NCBI RefSeq assembly: GCF_008801715.1
Contig: NZ_VZPG01000004.1
Coordinates: 310,001-374,000, forward strand
Length of the DNA stretch: 64,000 nucleotides
From: Pseudochrobactrum saccharolyticum
GTDB lineage: Bacteria; Pseudomonadota; Alphaproteobacteria; Rhizobiales; Rhizobiaceae
Direction of reading: 5' to 3'
The position numbers and the translations under genes are program-made. The notes under the pieces were generated by a model, which made no database searches, was not told the origin of the DNA, and saw only the letters and a list, made by a program, of their open reading frames with translations. Shown in pieces: positions 48,471 through 55,775 of the stretch; position 1 is the stretch's first letter, and each line of letters opens with the position of its first letter.

Positions 48471-48545
48471 TGGTACGCCCAAGGGGAATCGAACCCCTGT
48501 CTGCGCCGTGAAAGGGCGCTGTCCTAACCGCTAGACGATGGGCGC
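48471..48545 (-). tRNA. tRNA-Glu (anticodon TTC), copy 1
   Basis: On the minus strand the gene begins GCGCCCATCGTCTAGCGG and ends in the encoded CCA. The acceptor stem GCGCCCA pairs with TGGGCGT, the T arm is AGGGG-TTCGATT-CCCCT, and the anticodon loop CTTTCAC gives TTC. It is 75 bases long and identical to the copy at 48785. Confidence 0.96.
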
Positions 48546-48784: not shown

Positions 48785-48859
48785 TGGTACGCCCAAGGGG
48801 AATCGAACCCCTGTCTGCGCCGTGAAAGGGCGCTGTCCTAACCGCTAGACGATGGGCGC
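48785..48859 (-). tRNA. tRNA-Glu (anticodon TTC), copy 2
   Basis: This is the same 75-base sequence as 48471-48545, including the encoded CCA. The two genes are 239 bases apart on the minus strand, so this copy is upstream. The spacer shows no gene. Confidence 0.96.
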
Positions 48860-53890: not shown

Positions 53891-53907
53891 TAAAGACAGA
53901 AATTGAT

Positions 53908-53938
53908 AAAAACCGCCGGAATTTCCGGCGGTTTTTTG
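53908..53938 (+). terminator. Terminator after hom
   Basis: CCGCCGGAA and TTCCGGCGG form a strong GC-rich stem flanked by A and T runs. Confidence 0.9.
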
Positions 53939-53951
53939 TTGCGGATAGCTC

Positions 53952-53980
53952 TTGTCAGCAAAAAATCTATTTGATAAATT
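53952..53980 (+). promoter_or_regulatory. Candidate sigma-70 promoter of the ABC-F leader transcript
   Basis: TTGTCA (53952-53957) and TAAATT (53975-53980) are separated by 17 bases and match the consensus at 5 of 6 and 4 of 6 positions. The predicted start of transcription near 53987 is about 35 bases before the leader peptide ATG. Confidence 0.45.
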
Positions 53981-54010
53981 TCTGAGCAGCTCAACGCAGT
54001 TTAGGAAAGG

Positions 54011-54099
54011 AGGGCCGTAAGATGTTTTCTCTGCGACATCAGCATCATCACACATTCGGCCCTGATTACGCCCTGTCTCATTAATTTGTGCAGGGCCGA
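54011..54099 (+). promoter_or_regulatory. Candidate attenuator with mutually exclusive stems
   Basis: Stem A pairs AGGGCCG (54011-54017) with CGGCCCT (54057-54063). Stem B pairs TCGGCCCTG (54056-54064) with CAGGGCCGA (54091-54099), 9 bp perfect. The middle strand is shared, so the stems exclude each other, and stem A hides the leader ribosome site. Confidence 0.45.
54022..54084 (+). CDS. Candidate 20-residue His-rich leader peptide upstream of the ABC-F gene
   Basis: The short frame encodes MFSLRHQHHHTFGPDYALSH. It has a near-ideal ribosome site GGAGG (54009-54013), eight bases before the ATG, stronger than that of the ABC-F gene itself. Four of its first ten residues are histidine. Its codons 12-14 overlap CGGCCCT, which can pair either with AGGGCCG over the ribosome site (54011-54017) or with CAGGGCCGA after the stop (54091-54099). 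This is the arrangement expected of a translational or transcriptional attenuator. Chance cannot be ruled out from one sequence. Confidence 0.45.
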   Translation: MFSLRHQHHHTFGPDYALSH

Positions 54100-54245
54100 T
54101 TAAGACTGTAAAGCCTGTCTTTATCAGCCTTTTCTGAAAGGTGTAGTTCTGCTTGGAGCATGCTGCATCTGATTTGAGCCATCCCGTTACCAGTTCGCAT
54201 CTATGCGATGTTCTGTGCGGCTATGGCAAATTCTGAGCTGATCTT

Positions 54246-55775
54246 ATGTCCTACCTTAATCTTCAAAATCTTTCTCTTACTCTGTCTGTCGAACTGTTTC
54301 GTAATTTAAGCCTCGTTGTCGGTGAGGGGGAACGTCTTGGTGTGGTTGCCGCCAACGGTCGCGGTAAATCCAGTCTGATGCGTATCATCAGCGGTGATCT
54401 GGAGCCAACGGATGGTCTGGTGACCCGTGCCCGTGGTCTGAAAACCGGCGTGGTGCCGCAATATGTGCCGCAGGACTGGCTGGATATTTCCTTATATAAT
54501 GTGGTGCTGAGTGGGCTGGATGAAGATGCGCAGCTGAATGAAAGCTGGCGCGTTGATATTATTCTCGACGATCTGAGTGTGCCGCAGGATATGCGTGACC
54601 GTGCAATGCGGCAGTTGAGCGGAGGCTGGCAGCGCCTTGCTTTGCTGGCGCGAACGCAGATTGCCGAGCCCGATCTGTTGCTGCTGGACGAGCCGACCAA
54701 CCATCTGGATCTGGAAAAAATCCATCTACTTGAAGGCTGGTTGAATGATCTGCCGCGTTCAACAGCAGTGATTATGTGCAGCCATGACCGTGCTTTTCTC
54801 GATGCTGTAACCAAGCGTACATTGTTTTTGCGGCCTGAAAATTCGCAAATCTATGCTCTGTCTTATAGCCGTGCCCGTGTCGCATTGGATGAGGCCGATG
54901 CTGCGGATGCGCGCCAATATCAGAAAGATATGAAAACCGCACAGCAATTGCGCAAACAGGCGGCCAAACTCAATAATATTGGTATCAATTCGGGCAGTGA
55001 CCTGCTGGTGATAAAAACCAAACAGCTGAAGGACCGTGCGGAGAGGTTGGAAGATGCTGCCAAGCCTGCGCATCTGGAGCGGTCTGCCGGTGTTATCAGG
55101 CTGGCAGGGCAGAGCAGTCATGCCCGTGCACTGGTGGTGATTGATAATCTTGATGTGGTCACGCCGGATAATCGCATTCTTTATAAAACTGGCCGTTTAT
55201 GGATTAGCCCCGGTGATCGTATTGTACTGCTGGGGGCCAATGGTACCGGTAAAACGCGGTTGCTGACCATGGTACGGAATGTGATTACGGGTGTTGAGCC
55301 GGAAAGTTCGGCACTTAAAGCCACGCCGTCACTGGTGCTGGGCTATAGCGATCAGGCATTGTCGGAACTCAATGACAAGCATACGCCGCTGGAAACCATC
55401 ATTCGTCGTTTTGATATCGGCGATCAGAAAGCGCGTTCGCTGCTGGCAGGGGCGGGTATGAATATTGATATGCAGGGGAAGGCGGTTGCACGACTTTCCG
55501 GCGGGCAAAAAGCGCGGCTTGCTATGCTGGTGCTGCGGCTGACACATCCGAATTTCTATATTCTCGATGAACCGACCAACCATCTGGATATTGAGGGGCA
55601 GGAGGCGCTGGAAGCTGAATTGCTGAACAGCGATGCCGCCTGTCTTCTGGTGTCGCATGACCGCAGTTTCGTGCGCAATACCGGCAATCGTTTCTGGCAG
55701 ATTGTGAAGAATAAGCTGGTTGAAGTGGAGTCACCGGAAGCATTCTTTGAAGAAGCCGGACAGCTTGCGGGCTGA
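54246..55775 (+). CDS. ABC-F family ATPase
   Basis: This 509-residue soluble protein has two ABC domains and no membrane segments. Domain 1 has AANGRGKSS (an alanine replaces the first Walker A glycine), LSGGWQRL and LLLLDEPTNHLDL. Domain 2 has GANGTGKTR, LSGGQKARLAML and FYILDEPTNHLDI. The inter-domain linker (about residues 215-285) is charged and helical. ABC-F proteins act on the ribosome as translation factors or antibiotic-resistance proteins. It lies between hom and glpX, which are usually closer together in Brucellaceae, and is preceded by a candidate leader peptide. Confidence 0.9.
   Translation: MSYLNLQNLSLTLSVELFRNLSLVVGEGERLGVVAANGRGKSSLMRIISGDLEPTDGLVTRARGLKTGVVPQYVPQDWLDISLYNVVLSGLDEDAQLNESWRVDIILDDLSVPQDMRDRAMRQLSGGWQRLALLARTQIAEPDLLLLDEPTNHLDLEKIHLLEGWLNDLPRSTAVIMCSHDRAFLDAVTKRTLFLRPENSQIYALSYSRARVALDEADAADARQYQKDMKTAQQLRKQAAKLNNIGINSGSDLLVIKTKQLKDRAERLEDAAKPAHLERSAGVIRLAGQSSHARALVVIDNLDVVTPDNRILYKTGRLWISPGDRIVLLGANGTGKTRLLTMVRNVITGVEPESSALKATPSLVLGYSDQALSELNDKHTPLETIIRRFDIGDQKARSLLAGAGMNIDMQGKAVARLSGGQKARLAMLVLRLTHPNFYILDEPTNHLDIEGQEALEAELLNSDAACLLVSHDRSFVRNTGNRFWQIVKNKLVEVESPEAFFEEAGQLAG

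Follow-up and report, generated by a model that had tools for sequence, protein, structure and literature searches.

The DNA analysed here, a stretch of 64,000 nucleotides from Pseudochrobactrum saccharolyticum (the window), carries a short open reading frame between hom and a gene for an ABC-F ATPase, together with several short segments able to pair with one another (Table 1). A first-pass annotation had described this leader as a frame of 20 codons whose GGAGG ribosome site, at 8-base spacing, is much stronger than the site in front of the ABC-F gene. This description held: predicted strengths were −11.4 versus −5.5 kcal/mol, and the leader site was predicted to be the stronger one in 138 of 140 sequences, the window included. 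The plausible sigma-70 promoter that it had placed upstream is present as a promoter-like sequence, and alignment showed TTGTCA in all six Pseudochrobactrum genomes and GATAAA in five of the six, but the match taken alone is not significant and is no better than chance.

Table 1. Features of the leader region and regulated gene, in window positions.
Feature	Position	Strand	Remarks
Promoter-like TTGTCA/17/TAAATT	53952-53980	+	Consensus match only: 1 found versus 0.6 expected in shuffles
Leader Shine-Dalgarno AAGGAGG	54007-54013	+	8 nt before ATG; identical in 6/6 Pseudochrobactrum
Segment 1, AGGGCCG	54011-54017	+	Partner is segment 2 (54057-54063); masks leader ribosome site
Leader frame, 20 codons + TAA, MFSLRHQHHHTFGPDYALSH	54022-54084	+	Synonymous conservation
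Gly-Pro codons	54058-54063	+	At the centre of segment 2 (CGGCCCTG, 54057-54064) and of the motif conserved in the peptide; putative stall site
Segment 3, GCCCTG	54070-54075	+	5' side of hairpin 3:4; pairs with CAGGGC, 54091-54096
Segment 4, GTGCAGGGCCGATTAAGAC	54088-54106	+	Partner is segment 3 or segment 5
Segment 5, GTCTTTATCAGCC	54117-54129	+	Able to pair with segment 4 (at 54093-54106; ON) or, by 54123-54128, with segment 6 (at 54237-54242; OFF)
Segment 6, TGAGCTGATCTT	54234-54245	+	ABC-F ribosome-binding region; GCTGAT (54237-54242) pairs with ATCAGC (54123-54128)
ABC-F ATPase gene, 509 aa	54246-55775	+	Regulated gene; leader precedes its orthologues

At the gathering score, Rfam models recovered two tRNAs only from the window, and nothing from six relatives. 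Two tRNA genes with equal scores lie on the minus strand (48474-48545 and 48788-48859), their starts 314 bases apart. The terminator-like palindrome of hom (53906-53947) has several further matches elsewhere in the same genome.

Distribution of the leader and its ABC-F gene

In 394 Rhizobiaceae genomes, a first search for a ribosome site combined with a hairpin, GCCCTG/CAGGGC being presupposed, matched 50, of which 48 precede the same ABC-F gene (30 + 12 + the six Pseudochrobactrum) and the other two have no adjacent ABC-F gene. Because this pattern presupposed the hairpin, the search was redone with the ABC-F protein alone, leaving the leader out. The protein was present in 87 of the 394 Rhizobiaceae genomes, from 30 of 109 genera, in 61 of 397 genomes of an order-wide sample that overlaps the Rhizobiaceae one and, at a looser limit, in 16 of 337 genomes of a class-wide sample, the window's own included.

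The 148 upstream regions examined comprised 87 from the family (those of 86 of the 87 ABC-F-positive genomes, plus G245, in which the ABC-F gene is frame-broken), 46 order-wide (45 from outside the Rhizobiaceae and one more from inside) and 15 class-wide; G338 and G504, with the gene at a contig edge, had been excluded before counting. The leader preceded the gene in all 87 family regions, in 45 of the 46 order-wide regions and in nine of the 15 class-wide ones. The six class-wide regions lacking it belong to four ABC-F proteins at 36–39% identity, to G1058 at 42% and to G1025 at 59%. Among ABC-F proteins with 47% or more identity to the window's, 141 of 143 upstream regions contain the leader, the exceptions being the orthologues in G543 and G1025. 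This is the fair recovery rate, since the set of 140 sequences used in the comparisons below had already been selected for stem 3:4 (G543 and G1025, having no such stem, are out of it, and so is G769, although its leader is present). The first-pass annotation, which had read the region as a leader-peptide attenuator in front of an ABC-F gene, was right in outline and wrong in detail. A frame carrying Gly-Pro four codons ahead of a stem that begins with GCC occurred in 137 of the 140 real sequences, in one of 7000 base-shuffled copies and in one of the 140 reverse strands.

The leader travels with the ABC-F gene, as seen from the different neighbours of the pair in L020 and in four plasmid copies. 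Twelve plasmid records carry the gene, and all four that were examined (from Sinorhizobium meliloti, Pararhizobium, Gemmobacter and Ketogulonicigenium) also carry the leader. Within Pseudochrobactrum, ABC-F identity is 93–96%; a seventh genome of the genus, 61% complete, yielded neither leader nor ABC-F gene. The record L017, titled Bacillus subtilis strain SK6B4, encodes an ABC-F protein 94–95% identical to that of the window, falls in Pseudochrobactrum (G001) and looks misnamed. Leaders are intact upstream of the frame-broken ABC-F gene of L040 (G245) and of three ABC-F genes with one TGA in the matched stretch, in L075 (G148), L095 (G277) and L202 (G862).

Compared with curated family models, the ABC-F protein scored below the cut-off in every one among the 25 matches listed; the best score, 307.5 bits against a cut-off of 380, was obtained with NF000355, the generic ribosomal-protection model. 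The genome also encodes three paralogues, which reach 390, 430 and 357 on this model, all above the window's protein, and the score of the latter is thus no evidence for resistance. We read the protein, which stays below the cut-off of all 25 listed models, as a separate, uncharacterised subfamily. Its patchy presence is of a kind taken in an ABCF survey as a hint of a resistance ABC-F (PMC6723617). An AlphaFold model of the protein (mean pLDDT 42.6, 7 sequences) was set aside.

The leader peptide

The leaders encode peptides of 15–32 residues with the signature R-[Q/T/S]-x-G-P, followed by V, D or I. Residue by residue, 113 of the 140 leaders have the Arg, 134 have Gln, Thr or Ser next to it, and the third position is Arg in 92, His in 17, Phe in 16 and Tyr in nine; Gly is present in 137, Pro in 138 and a following Val in 94. 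Of the 87 leaders from the family, 85 retain Pro, encoded by four codons (49 CCC, 21 CCT, 12 CCG and 3 CCA), 85 retain Gly, encoded by two (60 GGC and 25 GGT), and 71 retain the Arg located seven codons ahead of Ala, encoded by three. These synonymous codon changes under a maintained peptide indicate that the leader peptide is under selection. In the six Pseudochrobactrum genomes, that of the window included, the peptides are nearly identical (MF[S/T]LRHQHHHTFGPD[Y/F]AL..). A different pattern was found downstream of the motif, where seven of the 140 leaders have a C-G in place of a T-A pair of the hairpin and Ala-Pro in place of Ala-Leu, so that the Leu at that place follows the RNA and not the peptide.

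Departures from the motif were found in G218 and G391, without Gly-Pro, and in G951, with Q-P. The leaders of the first two (L113 and L131; RYRQIRHLSAL and RNRQLCHLFAL) have kept hairpin 3:4 and lost Gly-Pro, and may respond to another signal or be degenerating. In G876 and G932, the leader is not preceded by any recognised ribosome site. A third leader layout, in L104, L136, L163 and L204, has its stop right after Ala-Leu and carries L-Q-[H/Y]-G-P-R instead of the usual motif (MRIIRQLQHGPRLAL and similar).

The peptide had also been called rich in histidine, and that of the window does contain five His; selection, however, is for R-x-x-G-P, with a mean of 2.1 His per leader and none in eight of the 140. 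The His run of the window is a local variant and no family feature. The macrolide +x+ motif (R-x-R), described in the accessible part of PMC10314930, can fit at most 92 of the 140 leaders, those with Arg before Gly, and misfits the forms with His, Phe, Tyr or Cys, that of the window among them. An RAGP/RGPP arrest register was considered and rejected, as R-x-x-G-P does not match it.

Pairing and predicted switching of the RNA segments

Stem 3:4 shows two-sided changes among the 140 sequences, with T-A (132) replaced by C-G (7), C-G (129) by T-A (2) and G-C (137) by A-T (1); for example, it reads GCCCCACGA/TCGTGGGGC in G947 versus GCCCTGCA/TGCAGGGC in most. We compared own with swapped partners in 28 dissimilar sequences for 1:2, 2:4 and 3:4. 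Among 20000 permutations, none was as good as the own partners for 3:4, 69 were as good for 1:2 and 16119 for 2:4. The first-pass annotation had proposed two stems competing for 54057-54063. The one hiding the leader ribosome site (1:2) can form in the window, and the permutations support it. The other (2:4; 54056-54064 with 54091-54099) can form as well and, in the window alone, outranks all other local duplexes in stability (−19.8 versus −13.7 kcal/mol for 3:4), but it is unsupported by comparison; conserved in its stead is 3:4. Conservation of the frame and of pairing in relatives, on which that annotation had made its reading depend, gave no refutation when examined.

Segment 5, able to pair on either side, connects the leader with the ABC-F start, a link that the first-pass annotation had called unclear. 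Hand-picked segments favour pairing, so 5:6 and 4:5 were tested on whole, unpicked regions from 45 dissimilar sequences, with 20000 permutations. For 5:6, own partners gave −21.84 kcal/mol versus −19.87 for swapped ones, with no permutation as good; for 4:5, the values were −20.72 versus −20.11 kcal/mol, with 771 permutations as good. Own partners were better than the swapped mean in 31 of the 45 sequences for 5:6 and in 27 for 4:5. With hand-picked segments from 15 representatives, 26 of 20000 permutations were as good for 4:5 and none for 5:6. Written as RNA, segments 4, 5 and 6 read GGCCGAUUAAGAC, GUCUUUAUCAGCC and GCUGAU in the window, GGGCUGACCA, CUGGUCUGCCC and AGACCAGAGAAC in G097 (Rhizobiaceae), and GGCUGAC, GUCUCAUCGUCAGCC and CUGACUCAAUGAGAC in G632. 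The 5:6 pair of the window reads TTCAGC/GCTGAA in three relatives; in Pseudochrobactrum it spans no more than six pairs, the terminal one being disrupted in two of six species. As predicted pairings, 3:4 and 5:6 are strongly supported by comparison, and 1:2 and 4:5 weakly. Sequence comparison thus demonstrates the leader, its peptide motif, stem 3:4 and the 5:6 pairing, and 4:5 is the weak link of the switch model.

Partition functions were computed for different ribosome positions, segment 5 being located in 85 of the 87 family sequences. In free RNA, median values were about 8 pairs each for 3:4 and 5:6 and about 0 for 4:5, and with a terminating ribosome they were 8.1 pairs for 5:6 and 0 for 4:5; both states are predicted to be OFF. 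A ribosome stalled at Gly shifted the prediction toward 4:5, which increased in 71 of the 85 sequences (median 5.0 pairs). The stalled state still kept 5:6 at a median of 3.3 pairs, and the mean accessibility of the ABC-F site gained little, from 0.34 to 0.37, with an increase in 62 of 87. In the window, 4:5 reached 10.6 pairs with a stalled ribosome and 0.5 with a terminating one, which left 5:6 at 4.7. Without a ribosome, its RNA already favours 4:5 (5.4 pairs), and 5:6 is regained when the leader is translated as far as the stop; by this model, the window's member may need translation to be OFF.

In minimum-energy folds, the ABC-F site was paired in 94% of real versus 69% of shuffled sequences, and shared use of segment 5 appeared in 39% versus 7%. 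Such shared use is not universal, as it was absent from G003, G004, G148, G320, G632, G695, G947 and G862, among others. In stalled minimum-energy folds, segment 4 paired with at least six bases downstream in 53% of real versus 65% of shuffled sequences; our confidence in the attenuator reading is slightly lowered because this pairing is rarer in real than in shuffled sequences.

A probable translational attenuator and its alternatives

We consider it likely, with fairly good confidence, that the leader and its segments act as a ribosome-operated translational attenuator of the ABC-F gene, which is most likely turned on when ribosomes stall. In uninduced cells, the leader would be translated to its stop, and either 3:4 would form or the terminating ribosome would occupy segment 4; segment 5 would then pair with segment 6, hiding the ABC-F ribosome site. 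A ribosome stalling around the Gly-Pro of R-[Q/T/S]-x-G-P, presumably brought to a halt in most cases by a ribosome-targeting antibiotic, would cover segment 2 together with the first part of segment 3, so that the freed segment 4 could take segment 5 and segment 6 would become available. The ABC-F protein would then probably relieve the stall, shutting off its own induction.

The motif might instead act as a sensor that needs no drug. The peptide would stall alone, or under a shortage of Pro-handling capacity (EF-P) or of the ABC-F protein, the loop would hold the ABC-F level constant, and antibiotics would be no natural signal. This would suit the near invariance of Gly (137/140) and Pro (138/140), the drug-free ribosome arrest by RGPP, RAPP and RAGP peptides (PMC12992588) and the repression by MsrD of its own induction (PMC10314930), both as reported in the accessible parts of those papers. 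We nevertheless regard it as somewhat unlikely: R-x-x-G-P followed by V/D/I is in a different register from RAPP, RGPP and RAGP, the known ABC-F leaders sense drugs in the descriptions available from the cited papers, and the presence of this ABC-F in only 87 of 394 genomes is a better fit to optional protection than to housekeeping.

A second alternative is transcription attenuation, in which the leader would determine if transcription ends ahead of the ABC-F gene, at an intrinsic terminator or through Rho. The B. subtilis vmlR and streptococcal msrD genes are controlled in this way, according to the accessible parts of PMC9226507 and PMC10314930, and Pseudochrobactrum has CCTTTT or CCTTTCTTT after the 4:5 hairpin, a possible weak terminator; downstream of segment 4, T-runs before the ABC-F gene reach a maximum length of 4–6 in the six genomes of the genus. 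Terminator-like hairpins, however, occur in just five of the 140 sequences, with no one sequence common to those five, segment 5 is followed by CTTCGTGG in many Rhizobiaceae, and the ABC-F ribosome site itself is a supported pairing partner (5:6). The rarity of terminator-like hairpins indicates that control is probably translational, and we judge transcription attenuation unlikely.

A histidine attenuator, in which uncharged His-tRNA would stall the ribosome at codons 8-10, would agree with the five His in the 20 codons of the window's leader, but it is very improbable, as the comparison of 140 leaders largely refutes a conserved run of His codons and the gene downstream encodes an ABC-F ATPase. 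That the frame and stems arose between hom and the ABC-F gene by chance, as the promoter match taken alone could have, is refuted by the conservation of the leader and by the shuffle control.

The proposed translational attenuator resembles, in part, several known systems, described here from the accessible parts of the cited papers. Control of ABC-F genes by upstream open reading frames (uORFs) is known for VmlR (PMC9226507), MsrD (PMC10314930) and CplR (PMC10201436), the msrD operon being mostly Gram-positive and found in some Gram-negative bacteria too (PMC10314930). In attenuators of the ermC type, a ribosome stalled on a short frame reshapes the mRNA and exposes a downstream ribosome site (PMC10219788). 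As in that type, the leader appears to be translated, from its synonymous conservation and its stronger ribosome site (138/140), and the downstream ribosome site appears to be sequestered (5:6, 0/20000 permutations); the peptide, however, is unrelated, and the ermC-type gene encodes a methyltransferase, whereas here it encodes an ABC-F protein; the present system is also wide in Alphaproteobacteria. With the VmlR, MsrD and CplR class, the leader shares an ABC-F gene directly downstream, but not the intrinsic terminator, with terminator-like hairpins in 5/140. The antibiotic-sensing leaders of VmlR (MIN) and MsrD (MYLIFM) are very short peptides in which an intrinsic terminator is central and R-x-x-G-P is lacking. 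The CplR leader of the Firmicute Clostridioides difficile also works by translational attenuation, but its uORF is only MR[I/M] and transcriptional attenuation acts alongside.

Among systems outside the ABC-F genes, the E. coli topAI uORF is likewise proteobacterial and senses several classes of ribosome-targeting antibiotics (PMC12121999), but it controls another gene (toxin-antitoxin) and involves Rho. The S. meliloti DUF1127 uORF senses translation inhibition in an alphaproteobacterium (PMC12218461), although through transcription attenuation, presumably by Rho, with a dispensable second uORF half and before a different gene. SecM, ApdP and RGPP arrest peptides also have Arg and Gly-Pro near each other in an upstream frame (PMC12992588, PMC10987492); these, however, are secretory or membrane proteins, classically before sec or yidC, with the register RAGP, RAPP or RGPP, and leaders of 15–32 residues are too short for the signal plus spacer of the RAPP/RGPP class. 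Among the matches listed in one open-access literature library, there was neither an alphaproteobacterial ABC-F leader nor an R-x-x-G-P leader. From sequence comparison, the leader peptide appears to be genuine, to be conserved widely and to belong to an attenuator of a known general type, in which the lineage and the peptide signature are new.

A bolder proposal, which we advance tentatively and with more doubt than conviction, is that R-x-x-G-P leaders constitute a new and ancient alphaproteobacterial class of elongation-arrest sensors. They would be read at Gly-Pro and report ribosomes that only this unstudied ABC-F subfamily rescues, in an undescribed drug context or drug-free, and would control, through translational switching alone, a ribosome-protection factor that has otherwise gone unrecognised. 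Should the attenuator reading hold, the control of ABC-F genes through leader peptides, described to date chiefly in Gram-positive bacteria, goes far back in Alphaproteobacteria. In length and conservation, the signature far exceeds the ABC-F uORFs MIN, MR[I/M], MK[L/Q], MAGN and MYLIFM, as these are described in the accessible literature; it predicts a stall site, and the inducer of the leader would reveal the role of this ABC-F subfamily.

Two minor features were observed around the leader within Pseudochrobactrum. An extra hairpin (GGTGTAG/CTGCATC, 54140-54169) lies between leader and ABC-F gene and, by eye, seems to be kept with changes in several members of the genus. In L015 and L016, from two species, a palindromic insert of about 75 bases (AGAGCG...CGCTCT; alignment columns ~205-310), which looks like a small repeat element, separates the promoter-like site from the leader.
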